Shown piece after piece: positions 1-61,184 of a DNA stretch of 64,000 nt; the first letter of the stretch is position 1, and every line of letters starts with the position of its first letter. Made by a program: the position numbers and the translations under genes. The stretch is taken from NCBI RefSeq assembly GCF_021917145.1, contig NW_025814038.1, positions 447,045 to 511,044 on the forward strand, read 5' to 3'. This DNA is from Hypomesus transpacificus (lineage: Eukaryota; Chordata; Actinopteri; Osmeriformes; Osmeridae). The notes below the pieces were generated by a model. The model was not told the origin of the DNA. It searched no databases and worked only from the letters and a program-made list of their open reading frames with translations.

Positions 1-867
1 GAATCCTGAATCTGGACATTTATGGAATTTTCTAAATATCCAACTAATGGACAATATTTCCCTGTCTGTATTAAGTGCCTGCTTGTAATGTCATAAGTGT
101 AATAAATTAATCATTATCTTCCCTTTTACTCTTTTTATTTAAAACATTTTAAATCTTATGTCAATGAAATTCAGAGAAATGTAAATATAATTCTTTAATT
201 TCACACTTGAGAAGGGTGATAATGGCTGTTGATGATGAATAAAAAATGTAACATAAATGTAATGCTACCTTTAACAAGGCACATACACAATAAGGCTCGT
301 GAAGACAGATGGGATTTCCCTGATCTGATTGGCCTCATCCCTCTACCTCAAGGCTCTCATTACCATAGATAAAGTGTACTAAATCTGTCAGGACTGTTTA
401 ACTCGTTTGAATATTTATTTCTCCACTGGCGCATTTTTTTTTTAAGCCACAAGTTTACACTATAGAGTCTATACACGATACCCTACGTTTTTTTTTTTTT
501 TTTAAGCGACCTCATCCGCCTGTCATTCTTGACATGCGCAATACAAACTGAAATCTGACCACAACCGGGACAGACACGGCGCGCTGGCAGTGGGACCGCA
601 ATAGGAACCGGCCTATTGTAGGCTATCATAGCAACTTTAACAAATCATACTAACAAAAATGTTAGAAGCTACTAGAAAAACGACAATTGCATTTGTTAAT
701 ACTGAGATGAAGATCACTAAATATAGATATTGATCAAGTTATTAGAGCGAAAGTCAAAAGTTTTCTTCCAAGGGAAGGAAGTTTGTTGTGACGAAGGAAA
801 TAGAATAGGAAAGTCGGGAGGGACTGCGGTAGGCGGATAGTGCCTTGGTACCGGATAGACATCGACC
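1..867 (+). promoter_or_regulatory. 5' flank and presumed promoter/5' UTR of rilpl1
   Basis: No open reading frame or recognisable gene is visible here. The stretch is AT-rich up to about 500, with short T runs at 427-444 and 490-503, and becomes more GC-rich from about 540. The rilpl1 start codon follows at 868. The transcription start cannot be placed from sequence alone, so the promoter label is positional inference. Confidence 0.35.
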
Positions 868-8411
<7,544 letters not shown>

Positions 8412-12219: not shown

Positions 12220-14754
12220 TCAATGTTTGAGCCACGGGTGTGCAGCGATGGAGGCTTTGCTGCGGTCCCCGTAGTCGTACTGCAGCTCTTCTCCCTCGTC
12301 GATGTCTCGAGATGCTACAAGGATGAGGTGAGGTATGCCGTTGATGTCATGGAGTTTGGTTTGACAGTTGCCCAGTTTACTGTGGTTGATCAGCCTGCCC
12401 ATGCGACCCGTCTCTTTTGTGGCATCAATGCTAGACGAAAGGATACAAAAAAAAAAAAAAAAAAAAAACACGACAAAGCTTGTAGCGTATTCTTCTAAAT
12501 GGAAAGATGACAAACCCTATAGCTCAGTCCTAACTTGAAAGCAACCAATGTAAACAGACTGTATATGAAAAGCACTGTTGTCCGGCCTACCAGTATGTTT
12601 TGCACAGGTACTGGAAGTAGTACATATAGCAGCCGGTGGCGGGGTTTTGAGCGTACTCCATCTCTCTTTGCTTGGCATCTGTGATTTCCAGCAGGTCGCC
12701 ATGGTACTCAACCACAAACTGGCCTTTCTGGAAACTCTGAGTTGCAAATACTCCTCTTCCCTTCCCCTCTATATGCTGAACCTGTAACAAAAAACGAGAC
12801 TCATATTACATTTAGTCATTTAGCAGACGCTCTTATCCAGAGCGACTTACAGTAAGTACAGGGACATTCCCCCCGAGGCAAGTAGGGTGAAGTGGCTTGC
12901 CCAAGGACACAACGTCATTTGGCTCAGCCGGGAATTGAACTGGCGACCTTCAGATTACTAGTCCGATTCCCCATCGCTCAGCCACCCGACTCCCTGGTAT
13001 TAGATGTCAGAGCACACAGGTGACAGTTATGGAGAAATGACAAGCATGACATGCCACGTAAGACTGTACCTCCATTCCTTCCTCTATCCCATTTGTGATT
13101 AGATCATCAATGTGTTTCTTTTGTTCACACTGGCAAGGAAAAACAAAGAAAGAGAGAAAACTGTATAATACTTGCATGATACACTTCTGATACCAACATT
13201 TCCTAAACAATGAAGCATAGCCACGTATATTTAATATAATAATCAGAAATATATACATTTTGTTAATTGAACTGTTTTCTTTTTGTTCATTTGTTGTGAT
13301 TAGTTTGAATTTAAACAAGATAAGTATTGCTGGGAAAACATGCATTATAAATTAAATTGACTCCAATCCTACCTTCAGCTCTGCTTTACATTTCCTGGAG
13401 CTTCGTCTTATAGGATAGTAGTCAGTTACTTTACGGTTTTGTGAATTCTCTGCACTGTAAAGAAATGAGGAAAATGTAATCAAAAACTTTTTTTTTTTTC
13501 TTCTTTAAAAAAATAAATAATTTACCAAACTGCTAGTTATGCTCAATGTGCCTACTTTCTGAACGCAGGCTTCTTCCCTTTGACCCTAGGTCGGATGCCT
13601 CTTCTGTACTTGTTGAGGTGAGCGGAGTTGTTGGCGAGGAATGGGTTGTGAATGACGTTGTTGCTGGGTGGAGGAGAGAGATCGTCTGGGGAACGAAGGC
13701 AAGCTGGAGGGTAGTGATGCTGAGAAGAGGCAAGGTCTCCTGTCCAGCAAGGAGGGTGCTGACTGTGACAACCTTCCCTCTCAGTCAGAGTCAAAACACA
13801 GGTATCCGAGTTAGCTGGGTTAAGTCTCCTGGCTGTAGGAAACATAAAAAACAGACAGTTATAATACACACATACCCTGGATAGATAAGTCATAGGGAAA
13901 TATTTTGACATGCCCTGAACATGAACTTACCATCTCCTGGCTTTGATGTGTCATTTTGCAGAGAACATCTTCCAGGACACTTTCCTTCTTGAGTTAGTTT
14001 TATTGTCATCTCATCATGGACAGGTGACTTTGACTTGCTGGGGCTTAAAAGGGTGATGGAATGGCCACATACAATGTCCTGTGATATAAGGGGCAAGATG
14101 GACAACATAATCATATAGAGGCTAGAGACTATGTTTAGTCCGTTAATATGGTTAGTATCGTTGTATAACATTTCCAGTAAGATTTGCATCCCAAGAGTTG
14201 ATTAGATCACTGCTTGCGTTCGGTCGGGGAGATCCGTCAGAGAGTGTCCCTCTGACTCTTCTGGCTAACTTTGCCGACAATTGCTGAATCTGTTGGTTAA
14301 CGTTTTCCATCTTGATTTGTATTACGATTCGTTATGGCCTACATTATGGCTCACTGGCTAACCTACGCTAGCTAGCACACAGCTTGTCACGTTGCATTTC
14401 ATTATGAGACTCTAATACTAGTTTGCTAAATGGCGATCATGTATTGTGCACAACCACTAAAACAACACCGTGTTTGTACTGTAGCTCGATAGTCATCTAG
14501 CTAACTTTAGCAAATCATATATTAATAGGTTAGGTTCATAGGCTAGGCTACCTAGCAAGCTGGCTAGTTCCTTCTTTCTGTTTAGCCTGGCTAGCAGGTA
14601 GCGTTAGTGCTAAATGTGTCCAAATTTGGTAGTTTTTGCTAACGACCTACGTAGCTCTAGATTTTTGGGGGCATATCTTCAACATGTGGGTTTAAACATC
14701 AGCGAATTTTAATGCAATTTTAAAGCCGCACATTGGCGAACTTACCCCGTTCAT
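12220..14754 (-). CDS. kmt5a: histone H4-K20 monomethyltransferase KMT5A (SETD8/PR-Set7), 7 coding exons
   Basis: KMT5A monomethylates histone H4 lysine 20 in the nucleus. Coding exons in transcription order: 14754-14746, 14078-13931, 13832-13556, 13454-13373, 13129-13070, 12781-12591 and 12430-12220, all in frame, about 325 residues. The C-terminal SET domain shows the NHS motif at 271-273 (GRLINHSKLGNCQTK) and YDYGD at 307-311, and ends SIAAHPWLKH. Exon 4 encodes NRKVTDYYPIRRSSRK, which matches the PCNA-dependent degron core (TD followed by two aromatics, then basic residues) used by CRL4-Cdt2 in this family. The first coding exon is only nine bases (Met-Asn-Gly then a GTAAG donor). I chose it because it joins in phase to a conserved-looking exon 2, but an upstream or alternative start is possible. 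It is transcribed divergently from sbno1. Confidence 0.9.
12808..12994 (-). mobile_element. SINE, UnaL2-type tail, in kmt5a intron 5 (copy 1)
   Basis: The element is sense to kmt5a. The minus strand reads a tRNA-like head with a B-box-like GTTCAATTCCCGG, a body with CACTTCACCCTACTTGCC, and a tail with the hairpin CGCTCTGGATAAGAGCG followed by CTAAATGACTAAATG. Its 3' end lies 26 nt upstream of the acceptor of kmt5a exon 6. Confidence 0.88.
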
Positions 14755-16039
14755 TTCGGACTTCTTTTTCCTTTTTAATATTTGGGTCCACTCTGCAGTG
14801 AAACAATGATGTCCAACAAGGTGGTCTATCTCCCCTGTTTCACGCAGTATGGTCATCCCACCACCCTCTCCCCAAGAGTACCTTTCGATTCCCCGGTTGG
14901 ATTGATTCTCTAGCTTACTGTCGTTGGTCTATTTGTTTTAGCGTCGAAATTATTTTAAAGGGGGAGGCATTTAAATTTTAAATGCTGTTGTACACTAGAA
15001 CAGCAGTTCCATCACAATGTCGGTAGGCGGTGCTGTAACTGACCTGGAACAGTCGTTGATCTTCCAAATGGTCATCATCATTAATCACTTTTGCATGAAT
15101 CAAACAAGATTATAACTATGTTAAATGTGATATGGTTAGAATTGCTTAACAATGGTTGTGTCATTCATGCATTCATGATAAGGATCTTGCGAATAAATAC
15201 AATTGTATTTTCTCGCGTGCTTTTCATAAACTTTCCGAACAGTTTCAACCTTTTGGCTCGTGTGACCAAATAAAATTGATAAAAAGTTTATCTAGCTCTA
15301 TTTAAAATGAACGGAATTTCTTAAGATAAATTATCCTTATATTTTTTATAATTATTCTAAAGGTTCGTGACTGCAAAATGGATTAAATTACATCAATTTG
15401 CAGTGGCCACTCCATCTGCAAACACTCTTTAAGCTCTGTTCAGGACATGCTAGACTTGTCTTTAGTAGGCTACTTATCCACAGCATTGATATACCTTACA
15501 ACTTTGTTTTTCGTTTACAAAAAAGACTTCACAATGTGTGTATTGCTTCTAAAATATGTGCTTATTCATATCGTGACCTTGATTCGCATGGATGCCTTTG
15601 CATCCATGCGAATGTAACAACAGCCAATCAAACTTAATATTTCGACATAAAAGTGTCTTGCTACTGCATGACACTGACACAAAGTATTGTATTTTCTTAA
15701 GAATTCAAACCATGGCTTTCTCAACCTTATTTCTCTAACAGTAAAGTATCTGCCAAGCATCATCACAGGATACGTTCTTCACCTAAAAAAAAGTAGCGGG
15801 CGTCATTTCCTGCGAACGAGCAAACATTGTCACGTGATATAGGTTTAGCGCTCTGTTTCTCGAATCTGTAAGGTTGACAAATATACTTGAAATGTCAACT
15901 TTGTTATCGTTATCGTTTGCTTTACGCAAATGGACACTCGATGCTATCTCGAAGAGCGATTTTCATCGATTATCAGCGAGGAATTCGAATCTAAAAATTC
16001 CAGTCTTTGTATTGAGCGTCACGTGATCTACTCGCAGCT
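14755..16039. promoter_or_regulatory. divergent kmt5a/sbno1 intergenic promoter region
   Basis: No coding sequence. The kmt5a 5' UTR begins left of this span (about 14.76-14.9 kb, minus strand) and the sbno1 5' exon starts near 16.05 kb on plus. The segment is AT-rich between 15.0 and 15.7 kb. The short palindrome GCATGGATGC...GCATCCATGC sits at about 15587-15612. The two start regions are about 1.2 kb apart, as in the divergent human pair. CACGTGA appears at 15831 and 16020, but factor binding is not established by sequence. Confidence 0.4.
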
Positions 16040-16142: not shown

Positions 16143-16823
16143 GTGAGTATTACTGATTGGTAATAATGTCTGGGATCGTCACAGGAATGTTCCGAGATCA
16201 TTGAGATTTCATTCAAAGCCGTGTGGCGTTGTTGGTTGTGAAACATTTGTTTGTTGTTTTCAGACTAGCAGTGAGGTAGCGTTGCTAGCCAGCCAACTTA
16301 GCACTCTCTAGCTAGCAAGCTAGTTAGCCCAATGCTAACGTAACGTAAGCAACGTAACGGCGGATTAACGTTACGTTGTGCTAGCTACAATGTGAAAGCA
16401 TAACACAGCTGACATTAATATAATTGTTATAAAGTAACAGATGTAACTTTAGGTTCTTCACAGATAATCTCAACTATAAAATCAGTCTGTGGCATTAGCT
16501 AAGTGTATAGTATAATATTTCTAGACTCATCCACGCCTAGTAGGAATGGATATCACTGAATGTTGTGACCGTCGTCAACAGAAACCGATGGTGCTTACTA
16601 GTGTGATTAGGCAGTAACAACGCTGTGTGTTCTTTGCTAAACCAGGTAGAATTCAAGTGGTTTACCAGTAAATGGCAGTGGCTACTCTTCGCTTGCTAGT
16701 TAAGTAGACAACGCGCGAGTTAGCGAACGAACCACATCTCACTTTGCTAGCTTTGTAGCAAGCTAACGAAACCTTTGCTAGTTTCGATCCTCCTGACCAG
16801 ACCACATGTGGACATGGAGAGGC

Positions 16824-18837
16824 AGCTAAATCTTTTTTTGCGTTTTGGACGTCCATATGGACGTCCATAGACTGACGGCGATGGCTGCTGATCTTTGCAT
16901 GGATGGACGGACGGCGATGCTGTTCAGAGTGCCGTCCATAGAGGGAGCAGATATTTTGGACGGCGTCATAGCCGTCCATATGGACGGCGATGCTGTTCAG
17001 AGTGCCGTCCATAGAGGGAGCAGATATTTTGGACGGCGATGGATTAGCAGGGACGTCCCTCGTGCCGTCCATAGAGGGAGCAGATATTTTGGACGGCGTC
17101 ATAGCCGCCCATATGGACGGCGATGCTGTTCAGAGTGCCGTCCATAGAGGGAGCATATATTTTGGACGGCGATGGATTGAATGTTTAGCAGGCTGTTGAG
17201 CTAACAGAACTGCCGAAGGCTACCATAGCATGTAGCTAGCTACATTAACTTTGGATGACTCAATCTTTTGTCAAGTTAATTTGTATGAATTGCATGTTAG
17301 TGCAATATTTACGCCTTTATTCTGTTTTTTTTACATAATCAGCAGTATGGTCTCATGACAATATAGACTTGAAAAACAATATGTTATGGTTTGGGTTTGC
17401 CTATAGGCTACATTTATTTTAATTATTTCGAGAATTGTTAATAAAGACTCATTTAAAAGGTTAACATTTGGAGTGTTAGGCCCATAGGCTATTACGTTTT
17501 GCATTTGTCTCCGCTCAAAGTGGTTCGTGCGCAACATTGGAGCTACTGACTGGTGGCTCCAAATCCACCCATAAAACACTTTAAACTGACGGCTTAAAAG
17601 ACCTAAAGGGCAATGTATTTCATAGGGTCATAACACAATGTTAAAATCTTAATTGAGTCTTTATTAACAATTCTCGAAATAATTAAAATATATGTAGCCT
17701 ATATCTAGGCAAACCCTAACCATAACATATTGTTTTTCAAGTCTGTATTGTCATGAGATTATATTGTTGATTGGCCTACTTTTGTATGTTAAAAATAAAA
17801 TAAAGGCGTAAATATATAGCCTTCACTTAAATGCAATTAATACAAAATAACGTGACAAAACTTATTGAGTCATCCACGGTTGCTGTAGCTACATTCATGG
17901 TAGCCTTTGACGGCTTTGGTTTGGCTCAACACATCGTATTGTGTTTTGCATTGGTCTCCGCTCCAAGCGAGTGTTTGTTGTTTTGCGTTTATCTCCGTGC
18001 GCAAAGTTCGTGCGCAAGATTGGAGCTACTGACTGGTGGCTTCAAATCCACCCATAAAACACTTTAAACTGACGGTTTAAAAGACCTAAATGGCAATGTA
18101 TTTCATAGGGTCATAACACAATGTTAACCTTTTAAATGAGTCTTTATTAACAATTCTCGAAATAATTAAAATAAATGTAGCCTATAGGCAAACCCAAACC
18201 ATAACATATTGTTTTTCAAGTCTATATTGTCATGAGATCATACTGCTGATTATGTAAAAAAAACAGAATAAAGGCGTAAATATTGCACTAACATGCAATT
18301 CATACAAATTAACTTGACAAAAGATAGAGTCATCCAAAGTTAATGTAGCTAGCTACATGCTATGGTAGCCTTCGGCAGTTCTGTTAGCTCAACAGCCTGC
18401 TAAACATTCAATCCATCGCCGTCCAAAATATATGCTCCCTCTATGGACGGTACTCTGAACAGCATCGCCGTCCATATGGACGGCTATGATGCCGTCCAAA
18501 ATATCTGCTCCCTCTATGGACGGCACGAGGGACGTCCCTGCTAATCCATCGCCGTCCAAAATATCTGCTCCCTCTATGGACGGCACTCTGAACAGCATCG
18601 CCGTCCATATGGACGGCTATGACGCCGTCCAAAATATCTGCTCCCTCTATGGACGGCACTCTGAACAGCATCGCCGTCCATATGGACGGCTATGACGCCG
18701 TCCAAAATATCTGCTCCCTCTATGGACGGCACTCTGAACAGCATCGCCGTCCGTCCATCCATGCAAAGATCAGCAGCCATCGCCGTCAGTCTATGGACGT
18801 CCATATGGACGTCCAAAACGCAAAAAAAGATTTAGCT
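16824..18837. mobile_element. 2 kb fold-back element with long terminal inverted repeats and GTCC/GGAC subrepeats
   Basis: The ends are exact inverted copies beginning AGCTAAATCTTTTTTTGCG. The left arm (16824 to about 17470) and right arm (about 18118 to 18837) are near-perfect reverse complements of about 650-720 bp. The outer part of each arm is a tandem array of 52- and 75-bp units containing CCGTCCATAGAGGGAGCAG and the palindrome GCCGTCCATATGGACGGC. The left arm has four units and the right five. The central 650 bp carries degenerate direct copies of the arm interior; about 17530-17645 recurs at 18007-18124. Open frames here (MLFRVPSIEGADILDG and similar) are translations of the repeat. 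There is no transposase. Because the ends are palindromic, AGCT or TA target duplications cannot be told apart. It lies in sbno1 intron 1. Confidence 0.85.
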
Positions 18838-19738
18838 CCTACTGTGGCTAGGACTAGCCCAGCTAACATATAGCATGGCTTAACCGGTTAGCCGTAACGA
18901 TGCGTTAGCAAATTCGTGTAAGTGTTAGCCATTTAACTAGCCAGCTGTAGACCTAGCGCAGCCTTAAGATTTGCAGTTGTGTATTAACCGTAGTTGGTGC
19001 CTAGTGGTTTCAATAGTTAAATGAGAGCATACCTATGCCAAACCCATAATTACCAGTTATCTCTGACAATTTGTTAGAGGGCATTCTAACAAGTTAGGTA
19101 CACGTTGTACCGTTTGACATTATACTCTGTAGTTGTGAACGACGTCAGTCCAGGAAGTTGGAAATAGCAAGGTAGTGCAAACACGTGCAATGGTCTGGGT
19201 CACATTGCAACTTGTAGGCTAGTTCAAGATCAGATAACTGGATTTTAAGTTACCAGACCACTCACTGCCTGATCGACACTAATATGTACGACTACATCAT
19301 CTACTCTTAGGACTACATTCCATAAACAAAACAGTTGTAAGTGTAATTACTCCTATAGTTACGAACAACTTATCTGTGGAATGTTTTGTCACATACTTTG
19401 CAAGTTCGTGCTCCGTTAATTTCCGACGTTGAAAAATTCAGATATGTTCAATCCTAAAAGGTATTCATGCGTGAAGTGTGAAAAGGCTCAAAATGAGAAA
19501 TTATTGTTCGTTTCACACATTGGGCTGCCATGTGTCTTGAGGAAGTTATGCTAATAATGCATTGCGTATCTATGAAAATCTAGCCTAGCCTGTTTTCATG
19601 CAGTCGTCTTTAACGTTTACACGTAGAAAATCTCTCCTTTGAATTGTTTAGATGTTAGAAAGACATAAACAACATTGTAAGTAGTTATCAATACTCTCTT
19701 GGTGTCAATAGCGAGTTAATAATATTTGTCTCGTGCAG
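18838..19738 (+). other. rest of sbno1 intron 1
   Basis: AT-rich unique DNA with no gene seen. It ends in the acceptor TCGTGCAG at 19731-19738. Confidence 0.5.
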
Positions 19739-22700
19739 ATGATGGATCCTGGACAGGATTTACTCCTTGCTGCTTTGAGCGAGAGCGGCATCTGCGCAAA
19801 CGATCTGTTCGACTTTGAACCTCAGGATGCGGCCCAGTCCTCTCCCCTCCAGCAGGTAAAAAGTCCGCAGGTGATGCATCAGTCACATGGCCACTTTTGC
19901 CACTTAAGGGGGGGGGGGGGGGGGGGTAGTAGTAAACAGCCAGTTTGTACAAGCGTTTGATTCAAATCGTTACTTGGTTAAGTTGAAACTGCATTATTGT
20001 TCTTGCTGGTGAACATGCTCACAAAAGTTTCTATTTGTTTTCCAGTCCATCTCCATTAATGCCCTGGATGTTGGTTTGGGGGCCGAGGCAGTGGGAGCTG
20101 TTAGAACAGAGACGTCACTTCAACCTACTCACACAGTCACCATAAGGGTAACGTCACCTACTCACAGTCACCATAAGGCAGCTGTTGTCAGTGTGATCCG
20201 CCACTGCCCCCCGTAGTGGTCCCCGACGGCCACAAGTAAATTATTGCGACATACAACTCAGAACGAAGAAAACAGTCAGTAGTAGCCTATTAAAATGGGC
20301 TACACACGTTCCGCATTCTGACATCGCAGCCTGTGCACGGTTTGAGAGCCTCTCTGGTTGTAGAGGGAGTTCTCCCCTCCCAAATAGAGTTGGTTGGGTC
20401 CATAGCCTGTCTTTTCTAAAAGGTTTTCTCAGATAGGCTACCGATTGCTGGGCCGGGCGGCCCAACCGTAACAATAGGCGTCAGGGAGGGCCGGAGTGAT
20501 GGCATCACTAGATAAGGTTTTACCAATTGAAAAAAAGGCTGTTTATTTGACATAAATCTCCCAAAACTATTTTGTGCTCAAATAATGACCAAACATTTTG
20601 TGTCGAAATCCCTATCTTCATCACATCAAACCCATATGTCCTAGGTTTGGGCTAGAATATTTACAACGTCTGGCTCCGTGCCTGATTAACGCTCGGATCG
20701 TTAAGCAGTCTCTAAACGTGTATTCTTTTCTTAGCGGAAATTAAAATTAAAGAAATTAAAATTAGCAGAAGAGCCTACATTATCCGTTATAAAATCATGT
20801 GCCGCTTACAATAGTATGGCACCAGGTCTGGAAGCATGTTGTTCTGGGGATATAGCCTACTCTCTAGTTAGACGGTCCGCAAGTTTTTATTTATTGGCCA
20901 AGTGGTCCCTGGTCTGAAAAAGTTTGAGAAACACATCACCTACTCACAGTCACCATAAGGGTAACATCACCTACTGACAGTCACCATAAGGGTAACGTCA
21001 CCTACTGACAGTCACCATAAGGGTAACGTCACCTACTGACAGTCACCATAAGGGTAACATCGCCTACTCACAGTCACCATAAGGGTAACGTCACCTACTG
21101 ACAGTCACCATAAGGGTAACGTCACCTACTGACAGTCACCATAAGGGTAACGTCACCTACTGACAGTCACCATAAGGGTAACGTCACCTACTGACAGTCA
21201 CCATAAGGGTAACGTCACCTACTGACAGTCACCATAAGGGTAACATCGCCTACTCACAGTCACCATAAGGGGAACATCACCTACTGACAGTCACCATAAG
21301 GGTAACGTCACCTACTGACAGTCACCATAAGGGTAACATCGCCTACTCACAGTCACCATAAGGGGAACATCACCTACTGACAGTCACCATAAGGGTAACA
21401 TCACCGTGGCTCATTGTTTAGGGATGTAATTTATTGACATCCTAGCCCAATTCGATTTTTGTATGAGCTCCAACTTTTTCATCACAAATGTTAAACAACT
21501 AGTTGTTGCTCGGTATCTATACAACTGTCTGAGAGTTGCCAAACTAAATGTAGTTGTATACAATGACACATTATTTGACCATTACTTTAACTTGCCTTAT
21601 AACATTGGTTTGATTATATTTACATTTAGTCATTTAGCAGACGCTCTTACAGTAAGTACAGTGACATTCCCCCTGAGGCAAGTAGGGTGAAGTGCCTTGC
21701 CCAAGGACACAACGTCATTTGGCGCAGCCGGGAATCGAACTGGCGACCTTTAAATTACTAGCCCGATTCCCTAACAGCTCAGCCACCTGACTCCTTATTG
21801 ACTCTGGACTCATTCCCTATTTCAACGTCCTCTTTACAGCACAAGCCCCAGCCCTCAACCACTACATTTGTCTTAAATCAACTGAATCAGTTGCCATCTC
21901 TGGGAACGGTTGTCGTGACCAAACCGTCGACCACAAGCACCCCCAGACACACCATCACCGTAACCAAGGTGGTTCACACCACCCCGTCAGCCCTGCATGG
22001 CTCCACGTCAACCTCCAGCTCCTCCATGCCTCGCCCCTCCATGGTGCCCAGCAGAGAGCAGGTCAGTCAGTCTGCCAGGGTCTGGGGGCTACCACAAGTT
22101 GTTCAATTACATGTTGATTCTATGATCATTTCTGTAGTAAAAAAACGATGTATTTAAAATTAAACTATAAAGAATATGCTAATAAAGTCAGTCACCTGTG
22201 ATTTCATTAACATTAAGTGAGCAGCTAGGCATGTGTTTGAACTTTCTTTTTCATCCTTCAAAAAAATGCACGTGTTTGGGGCGTGTCACTTCCTGCCTGT
22301 CTTCTCTGGGACGCGTCACTTCCTGCCTGTCTTCTCGTCTGGGGCGTGTCAGATCCAGCTGAAGGACCTGCTGAGGCAGAGCGGGGTGAAGAGCAGCAGC
22401 CTGGTGGAGCTGATGAAGCTCAAGCCTCCGCCCGACATAGCCCAGCCCGTCGCCACTGCAACGTCCACGGGAACCAGTGAGTCGCGAGGCCACGCCTACC
22501 CCCCCCCCATCTCCTCCTTTCTGTTCCCCGCTTTATGTTCAAAAGGATCTCTTGAATTGTAAGGGTGGCTTCTATGACGGGGGATGGAAAAAGCGCGGAG
22601 TCCGTCCAGAGCTGGTCGTGGTCTCGATTTGTCCGTTGATCCTCTCTAGAGTAGTAGGGATGGTTCATGGAATCACAGATCTGAGACTCCCCATATTCTA

Positions 22701-25700
22701 ATATGCCTCTGGGAGTTGGCCAAACATGTTTTTCTAATCGGCAAATATTGTTTCTTATGATTCACTGACCCTTGATTACACATGCTTTCATCCTCGCAGA
22801 AATAATTCTGGTCACGACAAAGATGATCACTAAACCAGGTATGGACAGGCTCCAGATAGGGGCAGGGATGGTCAATGATGAGGTGTTTCACAGGGTGAAC
22901 CGTTAAGGCTGGAAATGGATATTTAAACTTGTCTGGGTATTCCACATTCAAAGCATTCTTGTCATTTGTTAACGTCACATATTAGCTATGCTTGGTCTTG
23001 CTTAGGATGCATTTGTATTTTGATGTGAATGTATAAATAATCTGAGAAATGTAACAAATTCCCTTTTCTCCCTTTGAGAATCAGAGGATGATCTCTTTGT
23101 GGAGTTGGCAAAAGATTAGCCCCTAATTCATCGTGCGTCCTAATCTCAGACGGTTCCCGCTCGCCTCCTCCTGCTCTCTGATAAGGCCTGTGTCCTCTCT
23201 CGCCCCCCTCTAGCGGAACTGAACAACGGGGTGAAAAAGGAGGCGATGATGGGCCGAGACATGGCGCGAATCTGGGTGAATGAAGACGCGAAGGGGCGGA
23301 GCTTCTCCCCGACCCTCGTGAGTGTCTCCGCCCCAGGGCCGCGCTCGCTCCAGCCACGGCCGACGGATCTCATTCACTGACAGGCAGACTCGAGGTGGTG
23401 CAGCCGACCCCCAAGCTCATTCCCTCCGGCTTCGCTTTGTGTTTTATGTAGAAACTACCCGGGATGAAAGAGGAGGACGAGCCCGAGGAGGAGGATGAGG
23501 AAGAGCTGGGTCACGCTGAGACGTACGCAGAGTACATGCCCATGAAATGTAAGGCTGCTCCGCTAGACAACTCGCCATGTGGGGGCTTTTAAAATGCTTC
23601 ATCTCTGACTGTCAGATGGCTGAGCGGTTAGGGAGTCGGGCTATTAATCAGAAGGTCGTTGGTTCGATTCCCGGCCGTGCCAAATGACGTTGTGTCCTTG
23701 GGCAAGGCACTTCACCCTACTTGCCTCGGGGGAGAATGTCCCTGTACTTACTTGTAAGTCGCTCTGGATAAGAGCGTCTGCTAAATGACTAAATGTAAGT
23801 ATGTCTGACTGACGGCCGTGTGTGTGTGTCCAGTGAGGATCGGCCTGAGGCATCCGGACCCTGTGGTGGAGACCAGCTCCCTGTCCAGCGTGAACCCTCC
23901 CAACGTGTGGTACCGCCTCTCCATCCCAGAGGAGACCATCGACCGAGGCTGGCTCTCTGCTCTGCAGCTGGAGGCCGTCACGTACGCTGCCCAGGTAACG
24001 CTCCGCAAAGCTCCGGAGAAGGACCCAACTCTGGGATTCTCTTCCTTTTTATTTCCCCTCCGAGGGTTCAGGTGCGGTTACGTGGAGCCTTCTGTGACAT
24101 TGCTTGTCAAAAGAAATAACATTAGATCTCTGTTGACAAGTTTAGCTGCTAAATGTTCAGCCGCTTCTAATGTGGACAGTTCTTCATACTCGTCGAGTTA
24201 AGGGATAATGTTACTTTACAAAGCCGTTACAAGGCAGATTTAAAAAAAAAAAAAAAAAAAAATCTTTAAATCTTCTCTTGTACCCGTAGCAACACGAGAC
24301 ATTCCTGCCCAATGGGGATCGAGCGTCGTATCTCATTGGCGACGGAGCTGGCGTGGGGAAGGGCAGGACCATTGCTGGGATCATCTACGAGAACTACCTC
24401 CTAGGCAGGAAGAGGTCACTCTGGTAAACAGAAGATCTTTCTAGAACCGCTCGCCCTGTTGCTGGAAGACACGGGGATCTCAAAACGTTACTTTTAGACG
24501 AGTGAGTTCTGATTCGTAGCCGGTCTGTTCGTTCGACAGGTTCAGTGTTTCCAACGACCTGAAGTACGACGCTGAGAGGGATCTGAGAGATATCGGAGCG
24601 AAGAACATCCAGGTCCATTCACTGAATAAGGTAAAGGAGCAGGAAATGACCCGGTCCATTCACTAAATAAAGGCAAAGGAGCAGGAAATGACCCAATCCA
24701 TTCACAAAATAAAGGCAAAGGAGCAGGAAATGACCCAGTCCATTCACTGAATAAGGCAAAGGAGCAGGAAATGACCCGGTCCATTCACTAAATAAAGGCA
24801 AAGGAGCAGGAAATGACCCACAGCTGGTCCCCTGCTTCTGCAGCTGGTCTTGAATCCCCCTTCTTCTTCCTCTCTTGAGTTTTTATTTCTGGTCTCCTCA
24901 GTTCAAGTATGGGAAGATCTCCTCCAAACACAATGGGAGCGTGAAGAAGGGGGTGATCTTCGCCACCTATTCGTCCCTCATCGGGGAGAGCCAGTCTGGG
25001 GGAAAGTATAAGACCAGGTTCAAACAGCTCCTCCACTGGTGTGGGGAGGACTTTGACGGAGTTGTATCCTTAAATGGAATTTAAGAGAAGTTATATGTAT
25101 TATTTCTTCCTTATATCTTTGTATTTTATTATATATATTTTGACCATTTATTGTACTTTTAATACTTTTTTATATATGATTTAATTATTTATTTGAGTGT
25201 ATCAGTGACAGAATAATTATCCAGAACTATGTATTCCTTTTTCTTTAACCCAACACCTGTAAGATTGTCTATGATGAGTGTCACAAAGCCAAAAATGTGT
25301 GTCCAATCGGGTCGTCCAAGCCCACTAAGACTGGCCTGGCAGTCCTGGAGCTGCAAAACAAACTTCCCAAAGCACGCGTGGTGTATGCCAGCGCCACAGG
25401 TAAGGATCAGGCCTCAGCACCATCACAGTTCACCTGTGGAGACGGGACAGAATCAGAACTGGTTTTAATCACCATGAAAGTTTGCACAGACAAGGAATTA
25501 GCTTTGGTAGGAAGGTGCAAACATTAGCATAAACATATAGGAATCTTAAATGCAAATATGAGGACTAACTATTTCTAAGGGTACATAACTAGCAGTAATT
25601 AAGTGGAATTAGAATGAAGTAAAATGTACAATAAAATATAAAATATACGCTGTCTCAACACTGTGCGTCTGGCCTTCCAGGGGCTTCTGAGCCTCGCAAC

Positions 25701-28700
25701 ATGGCCTACATGAACCGTCTGGGCATCTGGGGGGAGGGAACGCCCTTCAAAGAATTCAGCAACTTCATCCAGGCTGTGGAGCGCAGGTGAGAGGATCTAC
25801 TGCCGTTTCATCTTTCGAGGTGTTTTTTAGGGCTTTTAGCAAAAACATTTGTTCATTTGTGGCTAAAGGCGTAGGAAGGAACTTGGAATCGGAACCCTTT
25901 TGGATAGCGACAACAAGTAAAAATCTAATGGAGTCGATCTCGCCCCCCCCCCCCCCCCCCCCCCCCTTGCGTTCACAGAGGTGTCGGTGCCATGGAGATA
26001 GTTGCCATGGATATGAAGCTGCGGGGCATGTACATCGCGAGGCAGCTGAGCTTCACCGGAGTGACGTTCAAGATTGAGGAAGTTCCGCTGACGCAGCATT
26101 ACATCAAGATGTACAACAAGTCCGTGCGTCTGGTGAGGGACCCTGCTGACCACGCCCTCAGGGGCGGGTCTATTCTTCTGTCCACTCCTCGTCAGATTAT
26201 CCTGCCGTAGCTCCAGATTATAGCAACATCCCTTGAATTATGTCTATCGATCCGTCCTAACGCATCGAAAACTCCTGGTGGTATGATTTGACAGTGCAAA
26301 ATACCTTATCAGATTGTCCTACCAGTCTAAAATAAACAGGTAGGATGATTTTACAGCGTGACAAAAAAATGAGGCTAAACGTCAATGACTGGTAGGACAA
26401 TCTGACTGCGGTGGATGAACTGGTCAGGACACTGACACGCTTCACCCCCCGGAGCCCACCGCTCTGCTGCCGTCAGCTGATCAGTGCCCGTGTGTGTTCC
26501 ATTTATCCATTTAGTCATTTAGCAGACGCTCCTATCCAGAGCAACTTACAGTAAGTAGGGTGAAGTGCCTTGCCAAAGGACACAGTCATTTGGCACGGCC
26601 GGAAATCGAACCAGCGACCTTCTGATTACTAGCCCGATTCCATAACTGCTCAGCTATCTGACGCTCGTGTGTGTTTCAGTGGGTGAGCGCACGCGAGAAA
26701 TTCCAGCAGGCGGCTAACCTGATGGACGCCGAGCAGCGCATGAAGAAGTCCATGTGGGGCCAGTTCTGGTCAGCCCACCAGCGCTTCTTCAAGTACCTCT
26801 GCATCGCCTCCAAGGTCCGTAGGGTGGTGCAGCTGGCCAGGGAGGAGGTGAAGAACGGCAAGGTGAGACGTCTGATCCTCATCTCTGGATGTGACAGCCA
26901 GGGGGCGGAGCTTTCCTTATACACGTCCCACCAACTGTTTGAAAACAGCAAATCTCCCCCCCCCCCCCACCCCCTCACTTCATAAAAAAAAAATATATAT
27001 ATTTAACTGCCGAATCTTCACTTATTAGAAAAAACTGCCCCCCCTCACATTTGAAAACAGACCTCCGCCCCTGGTTCCAGCTGTAGCGTGCTCGTACCGT
27101 AAGGTGCTGTGTATCGTGTGTGTGATAGTGTGGGGGTGTGTCTGCAGTGTGTGGTCATCGGGCTGCAGTCCACAGGAGAGGCTCGGACTCTGGAGGCCCT
27201 GGAGGAGGGAGGCGGAGAGCTCAACGACTTTGTGTCCACAGCCAAGTGAGTCCCCCGGCGCAACCATAGCAACACGCCGCTTTCTGGCACAACCATAGCA
27301 ACACGCCGCTTTCTGGCACAACCATAGCAACACGCCGCTTTCTGGCACAACCATAGCAACACGCCGCTTTCTGGCACAACCATAGCAACACGCCGCTTTC
27401 TGGCACAACCATAGCAACACGCCGCTTTCTGGCGCAACCATAGCAACACACCGCTTTCTGGCGCAACCATAGCAACACGCCGCTTTCTGGCGCAACCATA
27501 GCAACACGCCGCTTTCTGGCGCAACCATAGCAACACGCCGCTTTCTGGCTGCACAAAACACAAGGTCAGACTGGGCACTGAAATTCTGAGGACAAGACGA
27601 CGCAAAGCAACCTGTTATAACATATAAGTACTCAGAACAGAGAGTACACCTATGACTAGCTCAAATATAATAAACCTCCTAGCCGTGCTGCTTTGTGGAA
27701 GCACGCGGTCCTGGGAATGTGGTTTGACGGAGCGTTTCTTGTCTGTTTCTCCAGAGGCGTGCTGCAGTCTCTGGTTGAGAAGCACTTCCCGGCTCCAGAC
27801 AGGCAGAAGCTGTTCAGCCTACTGGGGATAGACCTCTCGGCCAAGAAGACCCCCTCTCCCATCGAGACCACAGCGGTGCAGAAGGGCAAGAAGAGGAAAG
27901 GTAGGCTGTCCATGTGGATCTCTCACTGCAGAGTAAGATCTTTCACGCGTATCCCTCACATGTTTTCATCCATTGAGTCTGCTTTATATCTCAATGTCAA
28001 CCAAAGACCCATCATGAGTCTTGTTGTATGCGGGCGTCACTGGACATGCAGAAAAATGAGAGAGAGAGAGAGGGAGGCGGCTTGATAGATGTCATGTGTC
28101 CCTCCCTCCTGACCAGGTCCAGGTGCGGAGGTGAGGAAGCAGGTGAAGAAGCCTCGCAGGTCGGGGGGGCTGTCCGGCAGCAGCTCAGACGACAGCCAAT
28201 CGGAAGAGTCGGAGAAAGAGGCGGAGAGCGACGACAGCTTCAAGTCGGTCAGCTCAGGGGAGGACGATGACGACTTTAACCCCTTCAGGGACGAGTCCAG
28301 CGAGGACGAGGAAGATGGTGAGGCGCTGTCACGCACTCCTGTCCCCCCTCCTCCCTATCCCCTCCTCCCTATCCCCTCCTCCTTCTCCTCTCCCCTCCTC
28401 CCTCTCTCCTCAACGTTCAATCACGCATGGTCAACGGGACCCGTTGCGAGCGCAGGAGACATTACATGACCTCGTAGGTGACCTTGTATCCCCCCCCCCT
28501 TCTCTCAATCTTCCAGATCCCTGGCTCATCAGAAAAGAGCCCAAAAAGGGCAAAGAGAAGAAAAGCAAGAAGAAGAAGAAGAAGAAAAGCATCGACCCAG
28601 ACTCTATCCACAGCGCCCTGCTGGCCTCCGGCCTCGGCTCAAACAGGCCTGCCTTCACTGCCCCGGCTGTGAAGACCCCCAGCACGCCCGCCACAGGTAA

Positions 28701-31700
28701 GAGGCACAGCGCCCACCACCCACGGGAGTTCACACGCCGTCACAGCCCCCCCCTGGGGTAGTAGGAGAGAGCTAACTTCCTGCTCTCCACAGTGAAGGTG
28801 GAGAGAGCTAACTTCCTGCTCTCCACAGTGAAGGCAGAGAGAGCTAACTTCCTGCTCTCCACAGTGAAGGCGGAGAGCGAGGACGGCTGCGTGACGAGCC
28901 AGGACGCGGTGGAGGACGCCCAGCACATGAAGAAGGATCTCCTGGACCAGCTGGAGAAGCTGGCTGCTGACCTGCCCCCCAACACCCTGGACGAACTCAT
29001 CGACGAGCTGGGGGGGCCGGAGAACGTGGCCGAGGTACCCACCGCCCCGGGGCTCCCTGCTCACGCTCTCCATGTTGATATTTAATCAGTATTTTACTCA
29101 TATTCTGTGTGTGAGCATTAGCCATATGCAATGGAAGGTCATATTTATTTGATTTGAAGACTTATCTTTTTATTGTTTGGATGTTTCACGGTTTATAATT
29201 TGTTAAATATATCATCCATAGTTGATGATGACAGTTAGCCAGCCGCCAGCCGTGTCCAGAGTTCCAGTAAACATCCCCCCCCTCCCTCTATCCCTCCCGT
29301 GTCTCAGATGACGGGTCGTAAAGGCCGGGTGGTCAGCAACGACGACGGCAGCATCTCCTACGAGTCTCGCTCGGAGCTGGACGTCCCCGTGGAGATCCTC
29401 AACCTCACAGAGAAGCAGAGGTTCATGGACGGAGAGAAGGTAGGGCTGGCGTCCTCCCCCCGGACTGCTTAGGTGCTCCTACAGGCGTGTGGGAGTGTGG
29501 TACCTCTCCAGTCCTCCACACGTCATGGAAACATCTCGTTCTCTTTCCCCTCCTCCTCCAGAACATTGCCATCATCTCGGAGGCGGCCAGCTCTGGGATC
29601 TCCCTGCAGGCTGACAGGCGGGTCAAGAACCAGCGGCGCCGAGTCCACATGACCCTGGAGCTGCCCTGGAGTGCGGACCGAGCCATCCAGCAGTTTGGTT
29701 AGTAGAGACCTCAAAGTCCCAACGTTTGGGTTTAGCTCGTGGGATCTGTAGCACTTTGCGACGGTCGTATTCGAGTCTAGCCCGGGTTCTGTCCTGCATG
29801 TCTTCCCCTCTCTCTCTCTGCCTTTCCTGTCACACTTTACTTACAACTGTCCAATAAATCACATAGCCCTTCAAAATACATTGTGTGTGTATATACTGAC
29901 TCCTACTTTGGTCTAATATCCTCTTTGCCCCACAGGGAGAACCCACCGGTCGAATCAAGTCACCGCTCCAGAGTATGTCTTCCTGATATCCGAGCTGGCA
30001 GGAGAGCAGAGGTTTGCATCCATCGTGGCCAAAAGACTGGAGAGCTTGGTAAGATGAATGATCACTCGGGAGTTAGAACAACCTCCACACGAGGCCATCT
30101 TAATGTTTGTCTTATCTTCGGGGCATTGTGACCCTTCCACGTGTTGTGACAACTTGACCTCATACAAAAATAAAGTGAAGAATTTTCTTTTAACCGTCGG
30201 GCTGTCTTTCACCCCCCACAGCTCAAATGTTAAAAGAAAATGCTTTTTATTTGTTTTTTGTATTGGGTAAAGTTGTCGCAGCACAACGATGGGTCGTTGT
30301 GAACCTTTGGGTTTATTGTGACCCGAAGGCAGCTCAAGGGTTAATGTTTTTCAAAGCGGGTGAACTTTGCTAAATGCTTTGTGTGTCCCATCCAAATGTT
30401 TCTGTGGAACAGGGAGCCCTCACTCATGGAGACCGAAGAGCCACTGAAACTAGAGACCTGAGCAGGTTCAACTTTGACAACAAAGTAAGGACACTGGGTG
30501 TGTGCGTGTGCATGCATTGGCATGTCTGTCTCAGGAGTCTAACTTTAATCTCAACCTTTCCCCCTCCCCTCCTCCTCCTTGTTCTGTCACAGTATGGCAG
30601 AAATGCTCTGGAAATAGTGATGAAGTCCATTGTAAACCTCGACTCTCCGCTGGTCTCTCCACCTGCTGACTTTGACGGGGATTTCTTCAAAGGTATGAAT
30701 CACTGGATTTTCCCTTCCTGGTTGTGAATAGTTGGATCTGTTTCCTTGTTTGAGTTTCCCAAGTTGGCCCATGAGTGTGATTGACACCAGGGAGGGAGGG
30801 GAATTAAAAGATTGCAGGCTTCTTTTAAAAAAAATTGTTTTATGTCTACCGGGTAAAACTAATATAAAAACATTTTTTTTCAGAAATTTGCAACGGACTC
30901 ATAGGTGTTGGGCTGATAAATGTGGAAGACAGATCCAGAATCCTGTCATTAGATAAAGGTGAGCACATGCAACACATTTCTCTGTCTCTCTCTCTCTGTG
31001 TGTCTCTCTCTCGCTCTCTCTGTCTATCTCTCTTTCTCACACTTCACTTAAAAACTGTCAAATAAAGCAAGTAAAATGTGAAAAATTTAGATTTAAAAAA
31101 ATAGATAAATTGTTGTTGTCACATAACTTAACCGTGTCTGCCCTCCTAACTGTCCCGCCCTCAGGTGAGGAGTTTCCAAACAGGTATGAAAAGTGCTTTT
31201 TAATTGTACATATCTGATGCCACGCCTGTGTCTCTCTTCTCCTTGTCAGACTACAACAACATCGGGAAGTTCCTGAACCGGATCCTGGGTATGGAGGTGC
31301 AGCAGCAGAACGCCTTGTTCCAGTACTTTTCCGACACGCTGGGGGCCGTTATACTGGACGCCAAGAAGAACGGCCGATACGACATGGGGATCCTGGGTAC
31401 GACGGGAGCCTGACCGGTTCACCTCAACGTTATGAACTTTCTGGAATTGTAGATATCTGTAGATATCTGCAGATATGTGTTGCTGCCGTCTACAGTGCAC
31501 AGACCATGCCCTTCTTAAACCATGCCTCTTTTCTCTCTCTCACTCTCTCTCACTCTATCGCTCTGTCTCTCACACACACACACACACACACACACACAGA
31601 TTTGGGTTCTGGGGATGAGAAGGTGAGGAAGGTAGAGGCCAAGAAGTTCCTAACCCCAGGCTACTCCACGTCAGGACACGTCGAGCTGTACACGGTACAC

Positions 31701-45200: not shown

Positions 45201-48200
45201 CTCAGAACACACCCCTCCACCAGAGCTGGAGGCCCTGCCTGGGCTACACTGCCTGGGCTACACTGCCTGGGCTACACTGCCTGGGCCACACTGCCTGGGT
45301 CACACTGCCTGGGTCACACTGCCTGGGCTACACTGCCTGGGCCACACTGCCTGGGTCACACTGCCTGGGTCACACTGCCTGGGCTACACTGCCTGGGCCA
45401 CACTGCCTGGGTCACACTGCCTGGGTCACACTGCCTGGGCTACACTGCCTGGGTCACACTGCCTGGATCACACTGCCTGGGTCACACTGCCTGGGCTACA
45501 CTGCCTGGATCACACTGCCTGGATCACACTGCCTGGGCTACACTGCCTGGGTCACACTGCCTGGATCACACTGCCTGGGTCACACTGCCTGGGCTACACT
45601 GCCTGGGCCACACTGCCTGGGTCACACTGCCTGGGTCACACTGCCTGGGCTACACTGCCTGGGTCACACTGCCTGGATCACACTGCCTGGGTCACACTGC
45701 CTGGGCTACACTGCCTGGATCACACTGCCTGGATCACACTGCCTGGGCTACACTGCCTGGGTCACACTGCCTGGATCACACTGCCTGGGTCACACTGCCT
45801 GGGCTACACTGCCTGGGCTACACTGCCTGGGTCACACTGCCTGGGCCACACTGCCTGGGTCACACTGCCTGGGCCACACTGCCTGGATCACACTGCCTGG
45901 GTCACACTGTAGCGTAGGAGAGATTATGTTTCCTTACTAAGAATGGAACCAGTTTAAAGTATTTGATAATTTCACATTTTAAAATTTGAAACGAGTTGTT
46001 GTGCTTTTCTGTCGACTGTCCAGGCTGTACCACCACCCCGACCTGCTGCTGTCACCAAGCAAACACTTGAGAGAGCCAGAGAACACCTATAGGAGGTCAT
46101 CTGCTTCTCAGTCAGACCAATCAAACGGCAGCAGGAAGTCCACTGGTCCTCAAAGTGACCAATCCAATGGCTACAGGAAGTCAACCCACCTTCAAACTGA
46201 CCAATCCGGTTGTGATGGCTCTATGAACAACTATTTCACCTCTGACAGTCGGAGGTAGCATTGTTTGATAACTCTTTTAGATCAAGGTGCTTGCAATAAT
46301 CATTAGTGAATAGGTATGTCGGAAAGCTTTTATAAGATGCTTTTTAACATTTAATATGTGTTTAGACTTACTCATTTACGCTAACTACACGCACCTACAT
46401 TGAAAGTGTCACCTGTTGTCTCTAAACCTTTCCGTACGGATAAAACCTATATGATGTCGATATGTTATGGATGTTCGACTGTTGTCTCCCCTGTTCTCCA
46501 GGTGTCCCACTCCCCCAGAACGAGAGCAGGGCCAGGGCCCGGAGCAGGGGGCTGGCCTGAGAGAGCCAGGCAGGAGGGACGGGCCCCTGACCCCTGTGAT
46601 GAGGGCCCTCATCGAGCTGGAGGAGACCAGGGCTACGGAGAGCAGGGCCCCCTGTAAGAACAGCTCCTCCCTCTCCCACAGTAGGACTCGGTCATCTGCT
46701 CACCTCTACCCTCCTCTGTCGCGTCCCACATCGGGGGCCCAAACCTCAATTTTGGATCTTTTTAGAGGGTTTAGTTTGTGTTTGTTGGATCGGTTTTGTC
46801 TCGCTAACGTTGCTTCTCTGTGTGTGTGTGTGTGTGTCTCCTGCAGGGCTGGCCAATGGGAGGCCCACTGTTGGCTTTGTGGAGCGGAGCCGCATCGAGT
46901 CTGTTCAGGAAAGGGGCAGGGCTGTACCTGCAGGGGGTGTGGCTGGACCTGAGAGAGGTGGAGCTGGACCTGAGAGATGCGGGGCTGGACCCGAGAGGGG
47001 CGGAGCCAGACCTGAGAGGGGCGGGCCTGGGCCCGAGAGGGGCGGGCCTGGGCCCGAGAGGGGCGGAGCTGGACCTGCGAGGCGTGTCGTGGGAGGAGCA
47101 GCTCTGCTGAGGGCCCAGAGGAGTCTGTCTCCAGAGGGCCACAGGTCCTCCTCCCTGCCTCCCCAAGGCCAACACACCTTCCCCCCATCCACCCCCAGTA
47201 CGTACCCTCCCTCCCAGCGCTCTTCAGCCTTGGTCCTCAGGGCCCCCACTGTCCTGCATGTTCCAGATGTTTCCCTGCTCCAGCACACCTGATTCAAATG
47301 AAGGGGAGTTGTCAGGTTTCTGCAGAACTTGATAACAACGGTGAGGGAGTCGGGCTAGTAATCAGAAGGTTACCGGATCGATTCCCCGCCGGGTCAAATG
47401 ATGTTGTGTCCTTGGGCAAGGCACTTCACCCTACTTGCCTCGGGGAGAATGTCCCTGTACTTACTGTAAGTCGCTCTGGATAAGAGCGTCTGCTAATTGA
47501 CTAAATGTAAATGTAAATATTCATTTAAACCAGGCGTGTTGGAGCTGGGAAACATCTGGAACATGCCATTGAGGACCAGGGTTGAAGACCACTGGTTTAG
47601 GCCCCTACAATATTAAAGCCGTGCTGCTGATTTTCTGCAGTCGTCTTTCCATGCTGTCGTAAGGCAGAACCGGGATGTTGTTAAACCCCAGATATCTGTC
47701 TTCTGTTTCAGCCAAAAGAGAGACTCTGATCAAGCCTCTGTCGGCTAAGTCCAGTCCCAAACGCTGTCCCACAGAGAACTTCTCAACTGCCTTTGGTCAA
47801 CCGCTACCACGACAACAATACCTGCACAACAGGCAAGCCTAACAGGATTCATAGGCATTGTACACTGCAAAAACTGAGTGATAATCTTGTTTTTACGTTT
47901 TTTATCTAGTTGGACCTCTTGTATGAGTTGTTTATCTAGTGACTTGATGAAAGATGCATAATGAAGTGACATTTTCTTACTGTCCTGGCAGCAACATATA
48001 CTTGTTTTAAGCTTAAGCAAGCTCATGGCTAATATTTTTGGGCACTTAACATGCCTTATCAAATGTATGTTTGCAGTGTAATTCTCTGGCACTGGAGCTG
48101 AATCCATGCCATCCTAATTATTCTGCTCACTGTTAATCACTGGTGTTGTCACGCCAAATAGTGTCCTAGGGCCAAATAGTGTCCTACCTGACGTCACAAT

Positions 48201-61040: not shown

Positions 61041-61184
61041 AGGGTTAGGGTTAGGGTTAGGGTTACCGCTGAATAAGCACCATGATGAAAGGGTTAGGGT
61101 TAGGGTTAGGGTAAGTGGTTAGGGTTAGGGTTAGGGTTAGGGTTAGTGGTTAGGGTTACCGCTGAATAAGCACCATGATGAAAG
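61041..61184 (+). repeat. interstitial telomeric repeat (TTAGGG)n with duplicated linker
   Basis: Three clusters of GGGTTA (about four, three and five to six units) are present. Two are followed by the same linker, TTACCGCTGAATAAGCACC ATGATGAAAG, at about 61062 and 61154. GGGTAAGTGG and GGTTAGTGG variants break the array. Confidence 0.93.

Follow-up and report, generated by a model that had tools for sequence, protein, structure and literature searches.

A 2-kb fold-back element beside sbno1 in Hypomesus transpacificus, very probably a copy of a young, non-autonomous DNA transposon family

A 64-kb stretch of the Hypomesus transpacificus genome, referred to here as the window, carries a long hairpin-forming element that very probably belongs to a young family of non-autonomous fold-back DNA transposons. 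Dispersed insertions of this family are bordered by 8-bp target-site duplications (TSDs), as produced by cut-and-paste transposases. Comparison of the copies reveals repeat arrays that vary by whole units, copies that are near-identical, and a central loop that occurs in both orientations.

Self-comparison of the 64-kb window identifies 16824-18837 as a near-perfect inverted repeat with a left arm of 645 bp (16824-17468) and a right arm of 718 bp (18120-18837), which bears out the preliminary description of a 2-kb fold-back with nested palindromes, namely GGACGGC/GCCGTCC. From outside to inside, each arm consists of a T-run end, the palindrome GGACGTCCATATGGACGTCC, an array of hairpin units, and an array-free inner arm of ~290 bp. 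The hairpin units are bordered by GGACGGC and GCCGTCC and show two repeat periods, 73 bp and 133 bp. Both motifs are found 14 times in 16824-18837, compared to only two (GGACGGC) and three (GCCGTCC) occurrences in the remaining 64-kb window; GGACGTCC is found six times in the element and once in the remainder, and the palindrome GCCGTCCATATGGACGGC is also present in the element. The arms had been said to differ by one 75-bp unit: a single unit does set them apart, but it measures 73 bp, lies in the right arm, and is accompanied by five substitutions. The centre (17469-18119) contains the additional direct arm copies reported earlier, in diverged form, with 181 nt and 67 nt matching the right inner arm at 95% and 93%, respectively; a gapped alignment between centre and inner arm spans 443 columns, 83% alike, and the direct copies are older. 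The rest of the 64-kb window gave zero matches to the element at E up to 0.1. The inverted arms occupy the extent first proposed, 16824..18837, but the transposon itself extends beyond them by 7 bp at either end (16817-18844), yielding the following features.

16817-18844, plus strand: complete 2028-bp fold-back element, with end A on the left and end B on the right, its limits set against the other 58 complete copies
16809-16816, unstranded: left flanking 8-mer TGGACATG, the expected TSD site, matching the right 8-mer at 5/8 positions (flank comparison)
16817-16827, plus strand: end A, GAGAGGCAGCT, common to the A ends of the family
16824-17178, plus strand: A-arm array of GGACGGC/GCCGTCC hairpin units
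17179-17468, plus strand: inner A arm, without motif array
17469-18119, unstranded: loop or core with diverged direct inner-arm copies (17496-17931 versus 17980-18394), its orientation differing among copies
18120-18409, minus strand: inner B arm, repeating the inner A arm in inverted orientation
18410-18837, minus strand: B-arm array, longer than the A-arm array by one 73-bp unit
18834-18844, minus strand: end B, CAGTAGGAGCT on this strand (family comparison)
18845-18852, unstranded: right flanking 8-mer TGGCTAGG, no clean duplication

A search of the 437-Mb assembly returned 316 exact matches to the 18-bp palindrome and 217 matches to a terminal 24-mer with up to two mismatches, at least 100 of them exact (all 100 matches listed are exact, and exact ones apparently come first), while the controls gave 0 in both cases. 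End B extended by 15 further bases had 115 matches with up to three mismatches. Searching the genome for terminal sequence and subrepeat, as had been proposed, thus uncovers more than 100 dispersed copies, and a single-copy hairpin locus is rejected. A scan of viral contigs for the 18-bp palindrome found it in two, approximately the level estimated for chance. Copies were fetched in listing order, together with selected outliers, and their flanks were aligned. Fifty-nine copies are complete; L010, L053, L054, L056, L057, L060, L063, and L064 have no complete end pair and stand outside this set, and in L063, an LTR-type element with 372-bp repeats 99.7% alike sits within the family copy, at about 425-5771. 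The alignment of flanked copies defines asymmetric 11-bp ends, A = GAGAGGCAGCT and B = CAGTAGGAGCT, which differ in their last bases; older ends of the family read GCGTYATGGACG, with the pattern AATCTTTTTTTGCGT[C/T]ATGGACGTCC.

Directly outside ends A and B, an 8-bp TSD agreeing at seven or more positions is found in 57 of the 59 complete copies (55 perfect and two at 7/8), whereas 7/8 was attained in just three of 472 control comparisons with shifted positions. Where a copy allowed more than one pairing of ends, the pairing with the best TSD was used, and the count is slightly favored as a result; without that choice, 43 of 47 rows have a TSD, and the four misses are L014, the window copy, L033 (where a duplicated end hides the TSD), and a second, inner row of L046. 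The true exceptions among the 59 are L014, which has two A ends, and the window copy, flanked by TGGACATG and TGGCTAGG. The composition of the 57 TSDs is weakly biased to nAnnnnTn (0.45 at both sites), with a slight central TA and no more than 0.16 bit per position; the TSD consensus of hAT transposons is nTnnnnAn or nnnTAnnn.

Palindromes are difficult to assemble, and the poor TSD of the window copy (5/8) could be taken as a sign that the element is an assembly artefact. This explanation is extremely unlikely: two copies elsewhere, L018 and L037, have the same 2028-bp length and the same array lengths, are flanked by perfect TSDs, and cluster with the window copy in the tree (support 93/86). 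The nearest relatives of the window copy in the tree of interiors are less than 1% away, so three mutations within a single 8-mer would be surprising. Its mismatched flanks more likely stem from repair or recombination, as has been proposed for chimeric Galileo copies, which have non-matching flanks in a family whose arms change length through tandem repeats and deletion (PMC3573991, available text). We read the element near sbno1 as an ordinary insertion that lacks a clean duplication at its flanks.

A domain search placed the SET exons of kmt5a to the left of the element (12223-12805, minus strand) and plus-strand sbno1 exons to its right, with AAA_34 at 25249 and Helicase_C_4 at 31204. This is presumably the gene order expected from synteny, and no large rearrangement is implied. 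The element ends ~0.9 kb upstream of a putative start codon near 19739, in an exon that we take to belong to sbno1. A CpG-dense bin at 15751-16000 (observed/expected 1.7) gives a weak hint as to an sbno1 first exon or 5' UTR intron, and a location of the element within sbno1 intron 1 is plausible. The window also contains six UnaL2 LINE 3'-end structures recognized by Rfam (at 12810, 23741, 26509, 38694, 47453, and 60586), minisatellites with 14-66-bp units (5552-6274, 20933-21405, 27257-27549, and 45235-45909), and two blocks of short interstitial telomere-like (TTAGGG)n sequence at 61041-61158.

Upon RNA folding, nearly the whole arms are paired on either strand (MFE -1468 and -1458 kcal/mol, values that stand without a shuffled control). 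Arms of ~650 bp would thus pair almost completely, and the nearness of sbno1 might permit transcription, two points in favor of a hairpin RNA gene giving long dsRNA or small RNAs. We regard such a gene as very improbable: the hairpin shape is shared across a family of more than 100 dispersed copies, and a search of the element against Rfam gave no family at or above its gathering score.

Complete copies of the transposon family range from 72 to 2846 bp. In the 1955-bp class, six of eight copies fall within 0.15% of the majority sequence, in a comparison that left out L014, also of that length; the outliers are L043 (0.6%) and L013 (18%, with an inverted centre). Likewise, four copies at different loci (L007, L022, L052, and L069) have interiors that are identical in the compared columns (at most 1235), which indicates very recent movement. 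At the lower limit of size, L047 (210-281) comprises 72 bp in which the two ends are joined into a near-perfect hairpin between perfect TSDs, AGGTAAGC; it is either the smallest mobile form or a copy that lost its loop after insertion. Extra ends also occur: the B end is duplicated in tandem in L033 (31 bp) and L046 (44 bp), and in L068, a 43-bp B-to-A mini unit adjoins a full copy. L014 (403-2353), with two A ends and no TSD, is probably a recombinant. In L062, L064, L065, and L067, an interior of ~780-1320 bp is unrelated to the window copy and to one another, and none of 10 ORFs from these unique interiors had a Pfam match above the curated cut-off, with two matches below it. The interior of L065 has 364 bp in common with L060, and that of L064 matches L010 at 81-86%. 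Close to L060, an unpaired copy, a THAP-like peptide was followed up and discarded, its ORF having no Pfam match at E up to 5; the underlying DNA recurs in part in L061, outside the element copy, and hence is probably another repeat.

The core between the arms is oriented one way in 44 of the 59 complete copies, inverted in 13, and absent in two; an earlier count of 55 copies gave 42, 12, and one, respectively. Once L014 is set aside, because two A ends leave its orientation undefined, 12 inverted loops remain among the 56 A/B copies with a core. All inverted-loop copies other than L014 retain both ends and the TSD. A tree was built from 51 interiors, 10 of them inverted (including L014), after dropping from the 55 the copies L021, L035, and L050, which lack an anchor, and L047, which lacks a core; L055, L066, L076, and L077 are outside both the 55-copy count and the tree and enter the count of 59. 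Parsimony needs eight orientation changes on this tree, most forks of which are poorly supported, and at least three are forced by its well-supported branches. As few as eight changes were sufficient in 109 of 500 shuffled labellings, so the inverted copies hardly cluster. On the tree, the inverted L067 groups with the unflipped L023, L040, and L045, from which it does not differ in the compared columns. Loop inversion suggests recombination between the arms, and part of the inversions could be assembly errors at palindromes.

The two arms within one copy are 0.49% apart on average (41 copies), and opposite arms of different copies are 0.68% apart; none of 5000 permutations gave a value as low as that within copies. 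Ten copies have a short indel common to both arms. A arms of different copies are 0.43% apart, and B arms are 0.84% apart. Homogenisation of arms at the scale of the single copy nevertheless does not appear strong, given that A arms are closer between copies than the arms are within a copy. Shared ancestry within subfamilies accounts for part of the within-copy similarity.

Transposons of the Tc1/mariner and piggyBac groups duplicate TA or TTAA at their targets. Neither group fits the family: its duplications are 8 bp long and directly adjoin ends A and B, and the TA and AGCT further in belong to the element itself. The flanked copies that reveal this also dismiss the idea, based on the window only, of an AGCT or TA TSD. 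A TSD of 8 bp is usual for hAT transposons and is likewise found in Zisupton (PMC12730594, in the text available), and the family has TSDs of this length. We consider a transposase of the hAT type, acting in trans, the likeliest partner, with about an even chance of being the right one, and rank it above KDZ/Zisupton on grounds of abundance, with 766 first-look hAT candidates in the assembly, 150 of which were scored with PF05699. Of the 115 B ends, 98 were compared with these 150, and no match came within 16 kb; more generally, no scored hAT (150 of 766), P-like, or KDZ match is less than 14 kb from the compared B ends. The B ends closest to a scored hAT match and to a P-like match each belong to a complete copy, of 614 and 1956 bp, respectively, with a TSD of its own. 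In five fetched hAT loci, on stretches that may stop before the transposon ends, A and B were found only with three to four mismatches in 16, which is the chance level.

A KDZ/Zisupton transposase, rather than hAT, as the enzyme that moves the family is a less probable, minority reading. It would fit the 8-bp TSD of Zisupton (PMC12730594) and is represented in the genome by 17 PF18758 matches (all 61 candidates scored), several with near-equal scores. One KDZ (Zisupton-type) element exceeds 12 kb and is present in two copies, L078+L081 and L079+L080, that are 98-99.7% alike; inside its left boundary, short hairpin motifs, TTTCGTGA/TCACGAAA, cluster in the first 140 bases of both, a subterminal style similar to that of the fold-back family. 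However, among the 99 listed ends, even the one closest to any of the 17 matches is 119,633 bp away, and none of the 17 falls between ends A and B. The KDZ element differs from the family in its motif and its end sequence, in a comparison that covered its left part and stopped short of its right end and TSD, and ends A and B were absent from this one element. A P-superfamily, Galileo-like transposase is a distinctly unlikely mover. Galileo has long repetitive terminal inverted repeats (TIRs) with several sites bound by THAP domains (PMC3688188, available text), and the genome contains 24 PF21787 matches to a P-like RNase H (all 28 candidates scored), but the Galileo TSD is 7 bp (PMC3573991, available text) as opposed to 8 bp in the family. 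None of the 24 matches lies between ends A and B, and the nearest, separated from a B end by 14,639 bp, lies outside the complete 1956-bp copy with its own TSD.

By its shape, the family is assigned to the fold-back elements, and no superfamily is claimed: the window element is largely made of long inverted arms with internal subrepeats, and the family is dispersed and mobile, with TSDs in 57 of 59 copies. Long inverted arms with subrepeats also make up most of Tetris and FB (Drosophila) and Tm1 (nematodes), all with many gene-less copies in the accounts available. Tc4 of C. elegans and TU of the sea urchin belong to the same class, sharing long, subrepeat-bearing inverted arms and many copies without genes. 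These five fold-back elements differ from the family in sequence and host and apparently also in TSD length, and the arrays described here alternate inverted hairpin units.

The fold-back shape occurs across different superfamilies (PMC3688188, available text). Galileo, a Drosophila element of the P superfamily, resembles the family in its long, internally repetitive TIRs and varying arm length, but, in the text available, it combines a 7-bp TSD with a P-type transposase, whereas the family has 8-bp TSDs, palindromic GGACGGC, and asymmetric 11-bp ends. Similarly, Hermes and other hAT elements share the 8-bp TSD (PMC12730594) and subterminal repeats (PMC10368747) with the family, while no hAT partner was found among the 150 scored of 766 candidates. 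Several BED domains of Hermes bind left-end subterminal repeats, two of which form a quasi-palindrome, and, in the available text, only the left end is bound by BED domains in the complex (PMC10368747); arrays are instead present in both arms of the family, extending 142-688 bp from the end to the inner arm where measured. Zisupton/KDZ has 8-bp TSDs (PMC12730594) and, in the element found here, a cluster of hairpin motifs inside the left boundary, but differs in motif, ends, and size (over 12 kb).

The preliminary description had proposed an undescribed, non-autonomous family with dense subterminal repeats, and more than 100 dispersed copies with defined ends and TSDs (57/59) agree with it. 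Its non-autonomous character is in keeping with the coding content of the window copy, in which four tested ORFs have no Pfam domain at E up to 1. In the literature searched, no title or abstract opening describes the family, and none contains the exact end or palindrome sequences; repeat databases were outside that search, and the family may be catalogued in one such as Repbase.

In the mechanism that we propose, a transposase encoded elsewhere and acting in trans would bind the palindromic GGACGGC/GGACGTCC arrays and make 8-bp staggered cuts at ends A and B. The arrays are, by analogy with Galileo and Hermes, probably its binding sites. The long, near-identical arms would recombine with, or template the repair of, each other, which could alter the number of units, flip the loop, and generate A/A copies such as L014. 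A bolder reading, which we hold only tentatively, is that of a still-moving vertebrate fold-back family whose arrays may serve as multi-site docking platforms for an undescribed transposase with 8-bp TSDs, perhaps of the KDZ/Zisupton type, and whose arms recombine readily enough to flip the loop between near-identical copies, the element evolving as its arms exchange sequence by self-templating.

Dispersed as more than 100 copies, many of very recent origin, and with known ends, TSDs, array lengths, and loop orientation, the family offers a natural experiment on how repetitive TIRs originate, change, and invert, and a system for testing the transposase partner and the worth of binding-site arrays. 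Palindromes of this kind are also recombination hotspots and possible sources of long dsRNA near genes.
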